Shown here piece after piece: positions 24,881-34,714 of a stretch of DNA of 36,413 bases. Position 1 is the first letter of the stretch; every line of letters starts with the position of its first letter. Source of the DNA: an uncultured Paraglaciecola sp. GTDB lineage: Bacteria; Pseudomonadota; Gammaproteobacteria; Enterobacterales; Alteromonadaceae. The notes under the pieces are model-generated. The model had not been told where the DNA came from, did not search any database, and worked only from the letters and a program-made list of their open reading frames with translations. Location of the stretch: positions 1-36,413 of the forward strand of contig NZ_CAJXPA010000022.1 of NCBI RefSeq assembly GCF_913058035.1. The letters are read 5' to 3'. Both the position numbers and the translations under genes were made by a program.

Positions 24881-24957
24881 TGGTGCGCGTGGAAGGATTC
24901 GAACCTCCGACCACCTGGTTCGTAGCCAGGTACTCTATCCAGCTGAGCTACACGCGC
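24881..24957 (-). tRNA. tRNA-Arg (anticodon ACG), copy 2
   Basis: 77 nt including an encoded CCA. The acceptor GCGCGTG pairs with CACGCGC. The D arm has AGCTCAGCTGGATAGAGT, the anticodon loop is CTACGAA with ACG, and the T arm has GGTTCGAATCC. ACG is normally edited to ICG and reads CGU, CGC and CGA. It is identical to the copy about 60 bp upstream. A false reading frame on the opposite strand gives the RIRTSDHLVRSQVLYPAEL peptide often misannotated over this tRNA. Confidence 0.98.
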
Positions 24958-25017: not shown

Positions 25018-25094
25018 TGGTGCGCGTGGAAGGATTCGAACCTCCGACCACCTGGTTCGTAGCCAGGTACTCTATCCAGCTGAGCTACACGCGC
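25018..25094 (-). tRNA. tRNA-Arg (anticodon ACG), copy 1
   Basis: Same 77-nt sequence and encoded CCA as the second copy, including the ACG anticodon. It is 27 bp after tRNA-Ser and 60 bp before the next tRNA-Arg, all one transcript by arrangement. Confidence 0.98.
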
Positions 25095-25121: not shown

Positions 25122-25209
25122 TGGCGGAGAGGGAGAGATTCGAACTCTCGGTAGCCGAAGCTACGGTTCCTTAGCAGGGAACTGGTTTAAGCCACTCACC
25201 CACCTCTCC
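25122..25209 (-). tRNA. tRNA-Ser (anticodon GCT)
   Basis: 88 nt with encoded CCA. The acceptor GGAGAGG pairs with CCTCTCC. The anticodon loop is CTGCTAA with GCT, reading AGC and AGU, and a long variable arm (CGTAGCTTCGGCTACG) is typical of serine tRNAs. It comes first in the tRNA operon after csrA, as serV does before argVYZQ in E. coli. Confidence 0.98.
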
Positions 25210-25518: not shown

Positions 25519-25734
25519 CTATTCTTCGTCGGTACTTGCAGCCTGTTCACTGGCTGCAATTTGAACGTTCTTTTCAGCTTGGATACGCATATATATTTCT
25601 TCACGATGCACAGATATTTCCTTAGGCGCGTTAACACCAATTCTTACCTGATTACCTTTTACCCCTAATACTGTTACGGTGACGTCATCACCAACCATTA
25701 GAGTTTCACCAACACGACGAGTTAAAATTAGCAT
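25519..25734 (-). CDS. csrA: Carbon storage regulator CsrA (RsmA)
   Basis: A 71-residue RNA-binding dimer. It begins [48 protein letters not shown], the near-invariant CsrA core with L4 and R44, which contact GGA motifs in mRNA leaders. The C-terminal tail is longer and acidic (STDEE). It controls carbon flux, motility and biofilm switching post-transcriptionally. The ATG follows AAGGAG. Position between alaS and the tRNAs is conserved in gammaproteobacteria. Confidence 0.98.
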
Positions 25735-25897: not shown

Positions 25898-28495
25898 TTA
25901 CAACTTTTCTTGTAACCAAGCTTGAACTGAAGCTATGGCTGAGTCCAAATGTTGTGATTCAGAACCGCCAGCTTGAGCCATATCAGGACGGCCTCCACCT
26001 TTACCACCGACTTGTTGAGCAAGATAGCTGACCAAATCACCAGCCTTTACTCTAGACACAAGGTCTTTAGTCACACCAACAATCAAATTTACCTTATTTT
26101 CTTCAGCTATGCCTAAAACAATGATAGCGCTACCTAATTGATTCTTGAAATCATCGACCATAGGTCGCAGCGCATTAGATTCGATACCTTGTAGCACTAC
26201 AGAAATTATTTTAACTCCTTTAATTTCGAAAACATCAGATAAAATATTCATCGTTATATTACTAGCTAGTTTTAACTTTAATTTTTCTAACTCTTTTTCT
26301 AATATTTTGTTTTGATCTAACACATGCTGCATACGAGCATGTAAGACTTGTGGATCTGTTTTCAATAAATTGGCTATCTGGTTTAGTTGATGGCTTTGAG
26401 TCTGAACTACATCAAAAGCTTTTGCTCCAGTAACGGCCTCAATTCTTCTAACACCTGCTGCAATACCACTTTCTGAAATAATTTTAAAGAGACCAATATC
26501 CCCTGTCCTTTTGACATGAGTGCCACCACACAATTCCATAGAAAAATCTCCCATAGAAACCACACGAACATCTCCTAAATACTTTTCACCAAACAGGGCC
26601 ATCGCGCCTGCAGCTTTAGCATCATCCAAATCCATCAATTTAGTGTCTAAAGTGTGATTAATACGAATTTGTTGGTTAACTAACTTTTCAACATTTTGCA
26701 ACTCTGAGTTGCTTAATGCTTCAAAATGTGAAAAATCGAAGCGAAAACGTTCTTCAGATACCAGTGAACCTTTCTGGTTCACATGCTCACCTAGTATCTT
26801 TCTCAATGCTGCATGCATTAAATGTGTGGCACTATGATTTAACGTTATCGCTTCACGGCGCTCAACATCAAATTCAGCTTTTACCATGTCACCTAGTTTA
26901 AAATCAAAATCAGACGTACCTCTATGGGCGATTGCATTACCTAACTTCAACGTTTCTGTTACCACAAAACTACCGTTAGCGACCTTCAATAAACCTGTAT
27001 CACCGATTTGACCACCTGACTCAGCATAGAATGGGCTTTTATCGAGAACAACAACACCCTCTTGACCTATGGTTAATTTGTCTACCTGTTGACCGTTGAC
27101 AAACAACTCCACGATTTTGGCATTGTTTGTGTATTGATCATAACCTGTAAAATCAGAAGTACAATTAGACTTTAGTAGTTCGTTGTAATCAGTATCAAAT
27201 TGACTAGCCTGTTGCGCGCGTTTACGCTGAGCAGCCATGGCAAGTTGAAAGCCTTCTTCGTCTATACTCAGATTTTTTTCACGAGCCACATCATTAGTTA
27301 AGTCTGCTGGAAAACCGTATGTATCATAAAGCTTGAATACTAACTCACCCGGAACCACATCGGATGTTAATTCATTGAGCGCATTGTTAAGAATGCTCAT
27401 GCCACGTTCCAGAGTCCTAGAAAACTGTTCTTCCTCAGTTCTTAATACTTTTTCTATAAGTTCACGATTTGCGGTTAACTCTGGATAAGCATCAGACATT
27501 TGTGTCTCTAAAGCTTGTACTAGACGATAGAAAAATACATCAGTAGCACCGAGTTTGTTCCCATGTCTTACTGCTCTGCGGATAATACGCCTCAACACGT
27601 AGCCTCGGCCTTCGTTTGAAGGGATAATACCGTCAGAAATTAAAAAACTACAAGAACGAATATGATCCGCAATAACACGTAGAGACTTATCTTGTTTGTC
27701 ACTTACTCCAATAATATCAGCTGCTGCTTCAATTAAATTCTGAAAAATATCAATTTCATAGTTGCTGTGTACATTTTGAATAATAGCCGAAATTCGCTCT
27801 AAGCCCATACCCGTATCAATAGAAGGTTTAGGTAATAGCTGCATAGTCCCATCACTTTGACGATTAAACTGCATGAAAACCAGATTCCAAATTTCAATAA
27901 ACCTGTCGCCGTCTTCTTCTGGAGTGCCTGGAGGTCCGCCCCAAATATGTTCACCGTGGTCATAAAATATTTCTGAACAAGGTCCACAAGGACCTGTATC
28001 GCCCATAGACCAAAAATTATCTGAAGTACTGATACGGATAATTTTGTCCTCAGATAAACCTATTTTGTTTGCCCATATATCGAAGGCTTCATCGTCATCA
28101 TGATATATAGTAACCAATAATCTGTCCTTGGACAGATTGAGTTCTTTGGTCAAAAAATCCCAGGCGTATTGAATTGCCTCAGTTTTAAAATAATCACCAA
28201 AACTGTAGTTACCTAACATTTCGAAAAAAGTATGGTGACGGGCAGTATAACCTACGTTTTCAAGGTCATTATGCTTTCCACCAGCTCGCACACATCGTTG
28301 TGAAGATGTCGCCTTAGTGTAATTCCGGGATTCAGTGCCTAAAAACACATCTTTAAACTGGTTCATTCCAGCATTTGTAAACAAAATTGTTGGATCATTT
28401 GCTGGAACTAAAGATGAACTGGATACTTTTTGATGTCCCCTAGAGGCAAAAAAATCTAAAAATGCACACCGGAGCTCGGCGGTTGTTTTACTCAT
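25898..28495 (-). CDS. alaS: Alanyl-tRNA synthetase
   Basis: An 865-residue class II synthetase that charges tRNA-Ala. The N-terminal aminoacylation domain begins [46 protein letters not shown] (motif 1 and 2 regions), with the GMGLERI motif 3 near residue 237. The editing domain has [11 protein letters not shown] (zinc HxxxH) and [13 protein letters not shown] with its partner Cys and His. A C-terminal oligomerisation domain ends [15 protein letters not shown]. Length is typical (875 in E. coli). csrA follows 163 bp downstream. A recX relic lies upstream, in place of the intact gene normally found there. Confidence 0.98.
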
Positions 28496-28641
28496 TTACA
28501 ATCCTGAAATATTAGTAATTAGTGGAGTTCACCTGTGCCAAAAGCAGCATAAGTAGTACTTGCGAAACCAAAGATATCAGTTTACTAGACTTTTGTTAAG
28601 ACTAGCGTTAATACTATAGAAACTTATTCTCTTGTTGATTC

Positions 28642-28702
28642 AATCGCATAGCGATTTGTTATGGATAAAAGCATAATGATGCAAAAACATTCCTGTTTTT
28701 GC
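28642..28702. repeat. Two small hairpins between alaS and the recX relic
   Basis: AATCGC-ATA-GCGATT (28642-28656) and GCAAAAACA-TTCC-TGTTTTTGC (28681-28702) are both perfect. On either strand neither is followed by a proper T-run. They lie in the 221 bp between the recX remnant and alaS, and may be a weak terminator of the former recX or the alaS leader. Nothing else is visible in 28496-28716. Confidence 0.4.
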
Positions 28703-28716
28703 TATTCTTTAACTAT

Positions 28717-29069
28717 CTATTGCAGGTTTATTTGCAAATTTTTTGTTAGATACTTTACAGCCAACTCAAACCAATCGATATAACGTTCTCTCATTGCTTG
28801 TGACACAATCTGTATAGAATTTTGATAACCCTGTAACGCATTATTATTCCTTCCTATATCTTTACTCTCAAAATCAAGAATTAAAGCCACCACACACACT
28901 TAATTGCAATGTAAATAGTGCGACTTAAATCTGACAACTCATTCAACACACAATTGATGTTCATGGTCTTGTAGTTACAGCTTATTAAGTAGTTCAGGCT
29001 GGATGTGCTCTCGCCCTAAAATGATCTATAAATCGTATTTTTAATGATCTTAAAATCATTTTCTGTCAT
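28717..29069 (-). pseudogene. recX: Decayed recX (RecA regulator) with frameshifts and a deletion
   Basis: Pieces of RecX appear in order in different frames. From an ATG at 29069 comes MTENDFKIIKNTIY, then after a shift ILGREHIQPELLNKL, then a TAA, LQDHEHQLCVE and a TGA. Then VLNELSDLS appears in another frame, and finally GYQNSIQIVSQAMRERYIDWFELAVKYLTKNLQ to a TAG at 28717. E. coli RecX has [21 protein letters not shown] and AMRECDIDWCALARDQATRK at these places. The total is about 350 nt against about 450-500 for an intact gene, so a middle part is missing. RecX normally binds RecA filaments and limits recombination. It sits exactly where recX stands in the recA-recX-alaS-csrA order; recA is not here. 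A 60-codon open frame at its 3' end (28717-28899) is a leftover. Confidence 0.8.
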
Positions 29070-29107: not shown

Positions 29108-30271
29108 TTGTCAATATTGAGTTCAAAATATACATTTAAATTTAGTACATCGATTGAAAAAATTGGTCAAACTGTGTGGGACGATTTAGCCAATGGTAAT
29201 AGTCCGTTTTGTCAATATCCATTTTTGCACGCTTTAGAAACGTCAGGGTCAGTAGGTGCAGATTCTGGTTGGCTACCATTTCATTGCGTCATTTATCAAA
29301 ACTTTGAGCCTGTCGGTATCCTACCTTTATACAAAAAAACACATAGCTACGGAGAATATGTGTTTGATTTTGCCTGGGCAAATACTTACAAACAACATGG
29401 CATTAATTATTATCCTAAATTAGTCGGCGCCATCCCTTTTACCCCAGTGACTGGCGCCAGGTTAATGCTCAGTGATGAGGTTGATAAACAGCAATTGTTA
29501 CCCGCCCTGTGCAAAGAAATTACTGAGCAGCTGACGTTAAGCGGTATGTCTTCAATGCATTGGTTATTTGTTGAACAAGACATCAGCCAATTATTACATC
29601 AGCATGGGCAAGTGCAGCGCCACACGGTTCAATTTCAGTGGTTTAATAGACAGTATTCTTCTTTTGAAGATTATTTATCACACTTTAACTCTCGCAAAAG
29701 AAAGAATGTGAAAAAAGAACGTCTTAAAGTCACGTCTGACGATGTAAAGGTTGTTCGCTTACATGGTGACAACTTGAGCAAAGATAATATGCATTTTTTT
29801 TACCATTGCTACAAACAAACCTATTTAAAACGCAGTGGTCATGATGGTTATTTAACTGAAACATTTTTTCAACAACTTTTTAAAGATTTGCGACATAATC
29901 TAATGCTTGTAATTGCTTTGAAAGACGAACGACCTATAGCTAGCGCACTTTTTATATTTGACCATAATCAACTATGCGGGCGATATTGGGGAGCTCTAGA
30001 AGAAGTACAAAACCTACATTTTGAATGTTGTTATTATCAAGGTATCGAATTTTGTATTGAGCAAAATATTGCAAAATTCAATCCTGGAACTCAAGGAGAG
30101 CATAAGATACTAAGAGGTTTTGAACCCATTTATTGCTATTCAAACCATTCGCTCAAAGAGTTAGCGTTTCATGAAGCAGTAGAAAGATTTATACAACAAG
30201 AAAATATCCAGATTGCAGAATACAAAAACAACGCAGAAAAACTTTTACCCTTTAAACAATCAGAAGCTTAA
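29108..30271 (+). CDS. GNAT-fold protein of the DUF482/FemAB-like family (PF04339)
   Basis: A 387-residue protein starting with TTG, 7 nt after AGG in AAGGGTTAGG. It belongs to the 'peptidogalycan biosynthesis' GNAT family of tandem acetyltransferase-like folds: an N-terminal WDDLANGNSPFCQYPFLHALETSGSV, then ALFIFDHNQLCGRYWGALEE, CCYYQGIEFCIEQNIAKFNPGTQGEHKILRGFEP, which is diagnostic. The biochemical role is unknown; transfer of an acyl or amino-acyl group is inferred from the fold only. It runs divergently from the recX remnant and ends 10 bp from the convergent DUF938 gene. Confidence 0.88.
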   Translation: MSILSSKYTFKFSTSIEKIGQTVWDDLANGNSPFCQYPFLHALETSGSVGADSGWLPFHCVIYQNFEPVGILPLYKKTHSYGEYVFDFAWANTYKQHGINYYPKLVGAIPFTPVTGARLMLSDEVDKQQLLPALCKEITEQLTLSGMSSMHWLFVEQDISQLLHQHGQVQRHTVQFQWFNRQYSSFEDYLSHFNSRKRKNVKKERLKVTSDDVKVVRLHGDNLSKDNMHFFYHCYKQTYLKRSGHDGYLTETFFQQLFKDLRHNLMLVIALKDERPIASALFIFDHNQLCGRYWGALEEVQNLHFECCYYQGIEFCIEQNIAKFNPGTQGEHKILRGFEPIYCYSNHSLKELAFHEAVERFIQQENIQIAEYKNNAEKLLPFKQSEA

Positions 30272-30914: not shown

Positions 30915-33578
30915 CTATTGAAGGTTAGGCCCTAGCCACTTTTCCGCTTCTAATCTATCCCAACCCTTGCGAGTTGCATAATCAAGCAATTGATCTTCTT
31001 GAATGTGAGCCACTGCAAAATATCGACATTCAGGATGAGAAAAGTAAAAGCCAGATACAGCTGCACCAGGCCACATGGCATAACTCTCCGTTAGTTTCAT
31101 ACCAGTATTCTTTTCGACATCTAACAGATCCCAGATCAATTGTTTTTCAGTATGTTCAGGGCAAGCAGCATAACCTGGAGCAGGTCGAATACCTTGGTAT
31201 TTTTCACGAATAAGTGCGTCATTAGTTAACGTCTCATCAGGAACATACCCCCAAATTTCTTTACGCACTTTTTTATGTAAATATTCGGCAAAGGCTTCTG
31301 CAAATCTATCTGCAAGAGACTTAACCATGATGGAATTATAATCATCACCGTCATCTTCGAATTCTTTAGCTAAGCCATCTTCCCAAGTGCCCGCAGTCAC
31401 GGCAAAAGCACCAAGATAATCCGCTTTACCTGAGGATTTAGGCGCAACAAAATCACTTAAGCAGTTGTTTGCCCCTTTAGATTTTTCAGTTTGTTGGCGC
31501 AGATGGTGAGCAACGTGAATGACTTTACTACGACTTTCGTCAGCGTACACATGAATATCGTCTTGCACTCGATTGGCGGGGAATATACCCGTAACTCCAT
31601 TGGCTTTTAGTTTGGGGTTGTTGCACAGAACTGTTAGCATATTCTGCGCATCAGCAAATAGAATTTGTGCCTCTTTGCCAACCACTTCGTCTTGTAAAAT
31701 ACGTGGATACTTACCTGCTAGAGACCAAGTTAAAAAAAACGGCGTCCAATCTATGTAATCAACCAACTCCGTCAATCCAATACTCACTGCGGTCACACCT
31801 AACTTATTGGGTATAGGTGGTTGATAATTGTCCCAATCAAACGTAAAACCATTTTTGCGAGCTTGGTCTAAAGTAACGGGCCTAGTTCGTGGCTTTTTCT
31901 TGGCATGTTGTTGGCGCACTTTCTCATAATCAAGTTTTAATTCTTCTGCATAAATGGCACGATTTTCAGCTGTGATCAATCTTTGACATACACCAACAGC
32001 ACGACTGGCGTTAGGTACATAAACTACAGGGTGTTGGTAATGATGTTCAATTTTAACTGCAGTATGTGCTTTTGAAGTGGTTGCACCACCAATTAGTAAT
32101 GGTAAATCAAAATTTAAGCGCTGCATTTCTTTTGCGACATGTACCATTTCATCAAGAGAGGGCGTAATTAAGCCAGAAAGGCCGATCATGTCGACATTTT
32201 CATCTTTAGCCACTTGCAATAATTTTGCGCAAGGCACCATGACCCCTAGGTCGATAATCTCAAAATTATTACATTGCAGCACAACACCAACAATATTTTT
32301 ACCGATATCATGCACATCGCCTTTTACCGTGGCCAACAATATTTTTCCGTTACTGCTTCCTTTGTCTTTTTCAAGTTCGATATAAGGATTAAGATAAGAT
32401 ACCGCTTTTTTCATTACTCGGGCTGATTTAACCACTTGCGGTAAGAACATTTTCCCTTCACCAAACAAGTCCCCTACTACGTTCATGCCATCCATTAATG
32501 GCCCTTCTATAACGTGTAAGGGTTTTTCTGCTGCCAGACGGGCTTCTTCAGTGTCGTCTTCTATAAAGTCCATGATTCCGCGCACCAACGCGTGCTCTAA
32601 ACGTTTATAAACTGGTAGTTCACGCCATTCAAGATTATCTTTAATTAAGGCTTTACCATCACCTTGATATTTGGGCGCAAGTTCTAAAAGTTTATCTGTA
32701 GCTTGATCATGACGATTTAAGATCACATCCTCGACGGCTACTTTTAGCTCTGCAGGGATCTGATCGTACACTTCTAGTTGTCCAGCATTTACGATGCCCA
32801 TATCCATACCAGCTTTAATAGCATGATACAAAAACACAGAATGCATCGCCTCACGAACGGGGTTATTGCCACGAAAAGAAAACGATACATTTGATAAACC
32901 GCCCGACACATGAGCATGGGGTAAGTGCTGACGAATCCGCTTTGTAGCATTAATAAAATCTACAGCATAATTGTTATGCTCTTCAATACCTGTTGCCACA
33001 GCAAAAATATTGGGGTCAAAGATAATATCTTGGGGCGGAAAACCAATTTGTTCAGTAAGTAATTTATAACTACGTTCACATATTTCAAATTTGCGGTCTT
33101 CAGTATCGGCTTGACCTTTCTCATCAAACGCCATAACTACTGTGGCAGCACCATATCGTTTTAACAGCTTGGCTTGATACAGAAAATTTTCTTCTCCTTC
33201 TTTCAAACTAATTGAATTAACAATGGCTTTACCTTGCACACACTTTAAACCTGCCTCGATAACCGTCCATTTGGATGAGTCAATCATAATAGGCACCCGA
33301 GAAATATCAGGTTCAGAGGCAATCATGTTCAAAAATCTCGTCATCGCAGCTTCAGAATCCAACATGGCTTCATCCATATTGATGTCGATAATCTGCGCTC
33401 CGTTTTCGACTTGCTGGCGAGCAACATCTAAAGCCTTTTCATAATCGTCGTCAAGGATTAAACGTTTAAACATGGCAGAACCGGTTACGTTAGTTCGTTC
33501 GCCTATATTGATAAAGTTTGCTGAAGTTTTCGCCGTAACAAAAGTAGGCAACCGTATGTCTTCTTCATTAATACTCAT
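30915..33578 (-). CDS. metH: Cobalamin-dependent methionine synthase, C-terminal polypeptide
   Basis: 887 residues from the ATG at 33578; an adjacent GTG could add one. It holds everything after the homocysteine domain: the pterin-binding barrel ([19 protein letters not shown] near 23, then [12 protein letters not shown]), the B12 cap (about 340-400), the cobalamin domain with GDVHDIGKN including the cobalt-ligand His at about 423, and the AdoMet activation domain with [15 protein letters not shown]. It lacks the zinc site. The previous gene ends with TAG at 33588-33590, and only three codons (GCG GTT GTG) separate this from the ATG in the same frame. AGGCGG overlaps that stop at 5-nt spacing and serves as ribosome site. 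The two products together (about 1245 residues) match one MetH (1227 in E. coli). Confidence 0.95.
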
Positions 33579-33587
33579 CACAACCGC

Positions 33588-34664
33588 CTAATGTACAAAA
33601 GGTTCTAAACCAGACAGGCGCATCTTCACCTCTCGTTGTACTATTTTACGAGGCACATAATTTTTTACCGCATCAGCGATGGCCGCAATATGTTTTGGTG
33701 TGCTGCCACAACATCCACCCACAATGTTTAATAAGCCTGATTTTGCCCATTCTTTAATATGTGCGGCCATTTCATCACTTTCCATATCATATTCACCAAA
33801 CTCATTGGGTAAGCCGGCATTAGGGTGAGCCGAAACAAAACATTCAGCTATTTGGGATATTTCATCCACATATTGACGCAATAAGTCAGGACCTAGCGCG
33901 CAATTTAAACCAAAAGAAAATGGCTCTATATGATTCATCGAATAGTAGAAAGCTTCAGCTGTTTGGCCTGACAACGTCCGTCCAGAAGCATCGGTAATGG
34001 TACCTGAGATCATCACGGGTAACTTAAACCCAAGCTCGTCAAATACCAGCTGCACCCCGAATATCGCAGCTTTGGCATTTAATGTATCAAAAATAGTTTC
34101 CAACATGATCAAGTCCACACCACCTTTAATTAGTCCGTGAGTCGCCTCTACGTATGCTTCAACCAATTCATCAAAAGTGACGTTACGTTTGGCAGGATCG
34201 TTTACATCTGGGGAAATAGACGCCGTCCGACTAGTGGGTCCTAATACACCGGCTACAAATCTAGATTTGTCAGGTGTTTGAATGCTAAATTTATCTGCTG
34301 CTTTCCTAGCTAATTTTGCTGCTTCGATGTTTATTTCTTTTGCTAGCCCCTGCATATTATAATCTGCCATGGAGATGGAGGTGGCATTGAACGTATTGGT
34401 TTCAATAATATCGGCCCCTGCGTCAAGATAAGCGCAATGAATTTCATAGATAATGTTAGGCTGACTTAATACTAACAAATCGTTATTGCCCTTTACATCA
34501 CAATGCCAGTCAGCAAAACGTTCGCCGCGGTAATCATCTTCTTCAAATTTGTATTCTTGGATCATGGTGCCCATAGCACCATCGAGCAACAAAATACGCT
34601 TGTTTGCTGCTTCAATCAGTCGTTCTTCTACTTGTTTTAGGGACTTACGCTGACTCAATGTCAT
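33588..34664 (-). CDS. metH: Methionine synthase, N-terminal homocysteine-binding polypeptide
   Basis: About 358 residues from the ATG at 34664 ([11 protein letters not shown]); an in-frame TTG at 34706 and an ATG at 34682 are other possible starts, none with a strong ribosome site. It is the homocysteine S-methyltransferase barrel: [35 protein letters not shown], and the zinc-ligand cysteines in FGLNCALG and GGCCGSTP, all present. It ends [10 protein letters not shown] where E. coli MetH continues CRLSGLEPLNIG into the pterin domain. Thus the break falls in the natural interdomain linker. It starts 8-50 bp after metA, within one operon. The two halves must work together, since the methyl group passes via cobalamin on the other chain. 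Confidence 0.93.
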
Positions 34665-34714
34665 TTCTGTTCTCGACTTCATTAAAAAAATAACCACGCT
34701 ATACAAATTAACGT

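Follow-up and report, generated by a model that had tools for sequence, protein, structure and literature searches.

Probable repeated displacement of the RecA modulator RecX, with the old gene copy decaying in place, in Paraglaciecola and related Alteromonadaceae

Introduction

RecX is reported to promote the disassembly of RecA filaments (PMC9252578). Canonical proteobacterial RecX (E. coli type; PDB entries 3c1d and 3dfg) is encoded in the gene order recA-recX-alaS, and a 2005 survey found 35 of 37 bona fide recX genes close to recA (PMC1193525). Whether RecX proteins that are distant, unlinked and longer share the job of the E. coli type was judged uncertain in the same survey (PMC1193525). 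One longer form, the firmicute type, is represented by RecX of B. subtilis, with 264 residues (PMC3527212).

Here we describe a recX locus of an uncultured Paraglaciecola sp. in which a remnant of recX matches, throughout its length, the alaS-linked recX of the genus. Unlike its canonical counterpart, recX here is not beside recA and has no SOS box beyond chance, whereas recA carries such a box in 22 of 22 genomes of the genus; both marks of an SOS-controlled recA-recX operon, adjacency to recA and a LexA box, are thus missing from recX. The situation is close to what is termed xenologous (non-orthologous) gene displacement, in that a divergent homologue is present elsewhere and the resident copy is lost. 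It differs on three counts: many lineages keep a legible old copy at its original site, some of them with lesions of their own; two different newcomers show the same pattern; and carriers of both copies survive as possible intermediates.

Results and Discussion

The recX pseudogene upstream of alaS

The window, that is the whole stretch of 36,413 nucleotides analysed here, is one whole contig (G000:C22) of the draft assembly (348 contigs) of the uncultured Paraglaciecola sp., hereafter the window genome (G000). We use RecX1 for the canonical alaS-linked RecX, RecX2 for a divergent RecX of ~167 aa and RecX3 for a RecX of ~270 aa. The recX1 remnant (28624..29069, minus strand) lies directly upstream of an intact alaS (25898..28495, minus strand; 865 aa; TIGR00344, 1077 bits), which is followed by csrA (25519..25734, minus strand; 71 aa, named by eye from its translation), tRNA-Ser with anticodon gct (25122..25209, minus strand) and two copies of tRNA-Arg (acg; 25018-25094 and 24881-24957). 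On the other side of the remnant, a FemAB_like gene (29108..30271, plus strand; PF04339, E 4e-138; PF13480, E 5e-8) is transcribed divergently.

The preliminary description of the window had reported three RecX fragments and had proposed that recX had decayed in place between 28717 and 29069, with its middle missing. We place the fragments at 28978-29019, 28923-28949 and 28759-28800 on the minus strand, in two frames. A RecX1 profile (A1), built from 13 intact sequences of relatives, matched 28678-29034 on the minus strand with an E-value of 5e-12 and six stops within the match. When the remnant was aligned with the intact recX of the sister species G021, 446 of 456 bases were aligned at 59% identity; the old frame is interrupted by four stops and shifted by three indels. 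An alignment of this extent and identity excludes a chance match, and the region is a genuine recX pseudogene, decayed in place upstream of alaS as had been proposed; no open reading frame of about 150 codons survives these seven lesions. The remnant runs from the old ATG to the old TAA, both ends checked, and is therefore real but longer (28624-29069) than first reported. Its middle is not missing: it aligns to the intact recX of G021, and is too diverged and frame-shifted for recognition by eye. It had seemed absent because the open stretches, scored singly, give weak RecX matches only (16.6 and 7.1 bits). PF02631 alone (42 positions) missed both the remnant and the RecX2 of the same genome, and whole-protein profiles were needed.

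Position of recA and SOS control

It had further been proposed that recA was gone from its usual position, that a divergent GNAT-like gene had replaced it and that the lineage had thereby broken a conserved synteny block. recA is indeed not adjacent to the remnant, but a search of the genome found it intact on another contig (G000:C24:344-1129, E 5e-145), and it was found once in each of the 22 Paraglaciecola genomes, the copy of G005 being cut by a contig end. The supposed GNAT-like gene is the FemAB_like gene, which was recognised by sequence at the same place in nine listed relatives with intact recX. As a normal neighbour of recX in Paraglaciecola, it was rejected on gene order as a replacement of recA. 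Nor did this lineage break the synteny. From the wider family, 40 loci of 7.2 to 11.2 kb with recX and alaS were retrieved: in all 40, recX or its remnant stands directly upstream of alaS, and none of them contains recA; hence recX and recA parted before the genus arose, and their separation is no part of the present decay. In two genomes of another family within the same taxonomic order (L114, L115), recA and recX are still adjacent. Of the 22 recA loci of the genus, 17 were listed, and none of these has a recX-like frame next to recA, with contig ends lying close to the gene in G000 and G005. Judged by eye, the neighbours of recA in these 17 loci include a pncC-like gene (12 loci) and a mutS-like gene (seven).

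Upstream regions of 200 bases were searched for perfect matches to CTGTN8ACAG, which we take to be the LexA box consensus. Such a box was present at all 23 recA loci (22 genomes), at one of 30 intact RecX1 genes, one of 38 RecX2 genes and none of six RecX3 genes. With no LexA box beyond chance near any recX, direct SOS control is improbable and RecX in these genomes probably lies outside it, as judged from these upstream regions; the idea of an SOS-driven second RecX was rejected on the same ground. Given no direct SOS control, a RecX copy at any site could replace another. Two further observations concern these loci. A dinB-like gene (by eye), a further DNA-damage gene near the detached recX, occurs in 23 of 72 recX loci, L172 and L181 among them. 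RecA of G013 (L079) is unlike that of G006 (L071), its near relative in the AlaS tree, in N-terminus and sequence, a hint that Paraglaciecola may have exchanged recA as well.

A second RecX in genomes with broken recX1

Of the 22 Paraglaciecola genomes, 12 have an intact recX upstream of alaS and nine have a remnant there (G000, G001, G004, G005, G010, G015, G017, G018 and G020). Comparison with related species, as suggested in the preliminary description, thus showed remnants at the same site in eight genomes besides that of the window. G012, in which a 3.9-kb contig carries other genes on the alaS side, was left out of both classes. The remnant of G017 is separated from alaS by a gene for a 417-aa protein, transposase-like by eye (L010, L051).

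The A1 profile also found a divergent RecX of ~167 aa in six genomes of the genus with broken recX, together with an end piece in the window genome. A profile of this RecX2 (A2) matched in G001, G004, G010, G015, G017 and G020, plus the end piece in G000. RecX2 is therefore present in seven of the 22 genomes, all seven with broken RecX1, and its gene was found in none of the 12 genomes with intact RecX1, one of which (G013) has a short stub. Weaker A2 matches in the recX-intact genomes were discarded, being their own RecX1 plus the G013 stub. This stub is a 19-residue RecX2-like piece with a stop (L105:1510-1566), and G017 has a second RecX2, internally deleted (L104:1501-1741).

In the window genome, RecX2 is represented by its last 66 codons at a contig end (G000:C184:3-200); the RecX2 profile search did not find the front part, and the gene is seen in half only. 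The loss of the RecA modulator, as originally put forward, consequently holds for canonical recX, which is dead, and not for RecX at large, since part of a second RecX gene is present elsewhere. A check of the genome for a second recX thus returned a partial, divergent RecX2 at a contig end. The alternative named at the outset, an intact recX elsewhere and a chance match here, was checked on both counts: a different RecX is present, though half seen, and the remnant is real. Two draft genomes with broken RecX1, G005 (340 contigs, completeness score 100%) and G018 (92%), yielded no other RecX when searched with the RecX1, RecX2 and RecX3 profiles and with the RecX third domain, and may be plain losses.

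Association of RecX1 decay with a second RecX across the family

We extended the comparison to a draw of 395 Alteromonadaceae genomes. The RecX2 scan (E<=1e-15) gave 51 matches, reduced to 50, including a very divergent one in G618, on removal of G419, whose match was its own RecX1. For a third type, the RecX third domain was searched in 13 RecX2-negative genomes with broken, weak or missing RecX1 and in five others. Six of the 13 (G564, G647, G657, G749, G414 and G442) have RecX3, and a RecX3 profile scan of all 395 genomes matched exactly those six, which belong to three genera. Carriers of a second RecX thus number 56 of 395, 50 with RecX2 or its very divergent relative and six with RecX3.

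RecX1 is not intact in 50 of the 56 carriers, 30 of which were read as DNA and 20 of which lack a strong profile match (decayed or absent). The DNA was read in the 35 carriers where the locus was known, and RecX1 proved broken in 30 and intact in five (G457, G508, G517, G618 and G737); G660, judged by E-value only, brings the carriers with intact RecX1 to six. Among the 339 non-carriers, RecX1 was shown to be decayed in two (G005 and G018), and five more were left unclassed: the canonical recX is cut by a contig end in G586 and G549 and has unread bases inside its frame in G736, G578 gave no match, and in G012 the alaS side of the short contig carries other genes. Of the 150 RecX1 matches listed, 144 come from non-carriers; 143 of these lack an internal stop, and that of G022 is a single open frame on reading. 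The state of RecX1 was taken from E-values alone in 188 of 339 non-carriers (weakest 1e-24, in G322) and in 21 of 56 carriers, and because the recX of G020, with three stops, still scores 2e-61, recent lesions among the non-carriers so judged could escape notice. One non-carrier, G395, gave two separate RecX1 matches (best 1.5e-34), and its recX is perhaps split.

The resident RecX1 is thus lost where a newcomer is present, being not intact in 50 of 56 carriers and shown decayed in 2 of 339 others, with five unclassed. When labels were shuffled within six genera, 48 broken carriers were seen against 36.3 expected (p 7e-12), a test that ignores kinship within genera. Relatedness was considered on a tree of AlaS, a single-gene tree of 72 rows made by a quick method, with 29 of 69 inner branches starred and some long rows, on which the state of RecX1 changes 12 times. 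Independent pairs drawn on this tree were typically seven for, none against and three tied (median p 0.016, range 0.016-0.06). Leaving out the four RecX3 rows gave typically 6:0 (median p 0.03, range to 0.125), and leaving out G005, G018, G000 and G618 gave 7:0. RecX1 decay is therefore associated with a second RecX, and the association holds on the single-gene tree.

Under simple loss, these marine bacteria could do without recX, which would decay occasionally, and the second RecX genes would be coincidental. It would account for G005 and G018, decayed with no other RecX found, and would suit a recX that, having SOS boxes at no more than chance level, no longer follows the SOS control of recA. 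It does not explain why decay was shown in so few genomes lacking a second RecX and in so many having one, nor the outcome of the within-genus shuffle. Moreover, outside genus g1, all six RecX2-negative genomes at least 90% complete and with broken RecX1 hold RecX3. We regard simple loss as improbable.

Nature and origin of RecX2 and RecX3

RecX2 proteins match PF21981 and PF02631 over the cut-off, PF21982 being absent or under it. They stay under the NCBIfam RecX equivalog cut-off (best 59 bits vs 175); the intact canonical RecX1 of the genus also matches NCBIfam RecX models under their cut-offs in the two proteins tried. RecX2 shares 23% identity with RecX1 over 107 aligned profile columns. 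Its predicted structure (mean pLDDT 73) has nine helices in three units of three, as in canonical RecX, and among structure matches only RecX chains reach probability 1.00, with rmsd of 10 to 11 A. In RecX3, three of three proteins exceed the cut-off of each of the three Pfam RecX models, and in some of them two small unrelated helical models are just over it as well. RecX3 too is under the NCBIfam RecX equivalog cut-off (best 78 bits vs 146 in two proteins tried). Its model (mean pLDDT 80, pTM 0.50) has sixteen helices, which we grouped into five units of three, and its structure list is led by six RecX chains with probability 1.00 and E 1e-3 to 3e-2. For both models, the first six matches are RecX chains of 3d5l, 3e3v, 3c1d and 3dfg (E 5e-5 to 3e-2). 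These matches support membership of the family and not structural detail.

RecX3 resembles the long firmicute RecX in length and in not being beside recA in the contexts read, and NF010733 (267 positions) was the best NCBIfam match of one of the two RecX3 proteins tried. It differs in its occurrence, in 6 of 395 genomes of a gammaproteobacterial family, and in its sixteen modelled helices, so that we speak of likeness only and not of orthology. The dN/dS ratio was 0.04-0.23 in 11 of 12 RecX2 pairs, one pair being saturated, and 0.04-0.10 in four RecX3 pairs, as compared to 0.04-0.11 in six pairs of intact RecX1 and 0.13 in the single RecX1 pair tried from genomes with both copies. RecX2 and RecX3 evolve under selective constraint.

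The RecX2 proteins of the genus form one clade (100/100), sister to that of G517 from another genus (94/92), in a tree much of which is poorly supported. Paraglaciecola may have received RecX2 from another lineage of the family. Among the 16 contexts examined, three (G010, G004 and G517) have next to RecX2 a gene belonging to one and the same cluster, which was typed as radD in G010; another neighbour is common to G000, G001 and G020. The second RecX of G618 is so divergent (branch 8 in the RecX tree) that it is hardly a RecX2; it is a fourth, very divergent RecX-like protein (173 aa; L244:430-951) near a contig end in a genome with intact canonical recX.

Relatives of RecX2 were found on mobile elements in 43 plasmid and three phage records, all distant (<60% identity), and plasmids or phages were accordingly set aside as an identified source. 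A scan of viral contigs with patterns of the genus RecX2 gave no match, and a scan of named genomes gave five loci, in Paraglaciecola strains. Five matches came from an order-wide draw of 394 genomes: G000, two genomes of genus g27, G302 and G214, the last two being in fact recX genes beside recA and not RecX2. The conjugative plasmid PWN146p1 of Serratia marcescens (L251:1-4477) carries overlapping genes for RecX and for a very large DEAD/DEAH helicase, possibly a mobile RecX-helicase pair.

RecX2 and RecX3 might instead be RecX-like proteins that do something else, perhaps in connection with the RadD helicase, and their association with RecX1 decay might reflect a shared ecological cause. 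The radD neighbourhood in three contexts, the overlap with a helicase gene on the conjugative plasmid and the low identity of RecX2 to RecX1 would all agree with this. However, the same link with RecX1 loss is seen for two different RecX types, both profiles and structure models match RecX best, and RadD is itself reported as a RecA accessory (PMC8887467). Such another role seems to us about as improbable as simple loss, and we infer from sequence that RecX2 and RecX3 may well act on RecA.

Order of events and displacement of RecX1

The reading that we prefer, at a rough probability of 0.77, is repeated displacement of the RecA modulator RecX, with the old copy decaying in place. It would start from a canonical recX already apart from recA and sitting upstream of alaS. 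Several lineages, that of the window included, would then come to hold a second RecX type, RecX2 or RecX3, at an unrelated site. If the second RecX supplied the same activity, limiting and dismantling RecA filaments, selection on the old recX1 would be relaxed and the gene could break in place, often by lineage-specific lesions.

The lesions themselves bear on the order of gain and decay. Among the six broken recX1 genes of the window's clade there is no convincingly common lesion, and the three of genus g128 have none in common. A one-base gap near codon 111 in three of the six rows of the window's clade was set aside as a common lesion, because the gap of G000 lies about ten columns from that of G018 and G015, and the latter two are not sisters in the AlaS tree. 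In genera g27 and g118, where the rows were aligned, several lesions are common to genomes, so that some decays there are inherited and the carriers are not all independent. The different lesions among near relatives, and the six carriers keeping canonical recX, lead us to prefer gain first: the second RecX was probably gained before recX1 decayed. These six carriers also show that the presence of a second RecX does not force the decay of recX1 at once.

In the reverse order, recX1 would have decayed first, whether through chance or as a sequel to parting from recA, and selection would have favoured a foreign RecX that restored the function. G005 and G018, with decay and no second RecX, could then be the intermediate stage. 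The opposite intermediates, with both copies, are more numerous (five read as intact and one by E-value), and in two groups near relatives with a common RecX2 broke recX1 by different lesions. Decay followed by rescue is, if anything, slightly less credible than the two alternatives above. Sequencing or assembly error breaking an intact recX, conceivable in a draft of 348 contigs, is next to impossible, given seven separate lesions at 59% identity to the sister species' gene, open frames in alaS and the FemAB gene on both sides, and separately broken recX genes in eight other genomes of the genus, the single-contig G001 and G004 among them.

Displacement thus gives the window a different meaning: what was seen there is true, but it was probably misread as plain loss and is one case of repeated replacement of a RecA regulator. 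A stricter form of displacement is a one-RecX rule, by which two RecX proteins would over-restrain RecA filaments, so that arrival of a mobile second one would select for breakage of one of the two. If true, the rule would explain the many separate in-place breaks of recX1, the two unlike newcomers and the stub in G013; we consider it doubtful. For displacement as a whole, the draft assemblies, the half-seen RecX2 of the window genome, E-value states in many genomes, the single-gene tree and the function of RecX2 and RecX3, predicted from homology, set the limits within which it should be read.

Nature appears to have swapped RecX repeatedly: the canonical copy decays in genomes with a divergent form, 167 or 270 residues long. 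This suggests that exchange of a RecA regulator does not require exchange of recA. Among the best matches listed in the open-access literature there was no account of such displacement of recX. The same genomes offer ready sets of RecX1, RecX2 and RecX3 with related RecA proteins for asking whether these are functionally equivalent, and the many lesions of recX1 may help to date gains and losses relative to one another.

Elsewhere in the window, two adjacent open reading frames of 888 and 372 aa (30915-33581 and 33588-34706, minus strand) were recognised by eye from their translations as methionine synthase; metH is usually one long gene.
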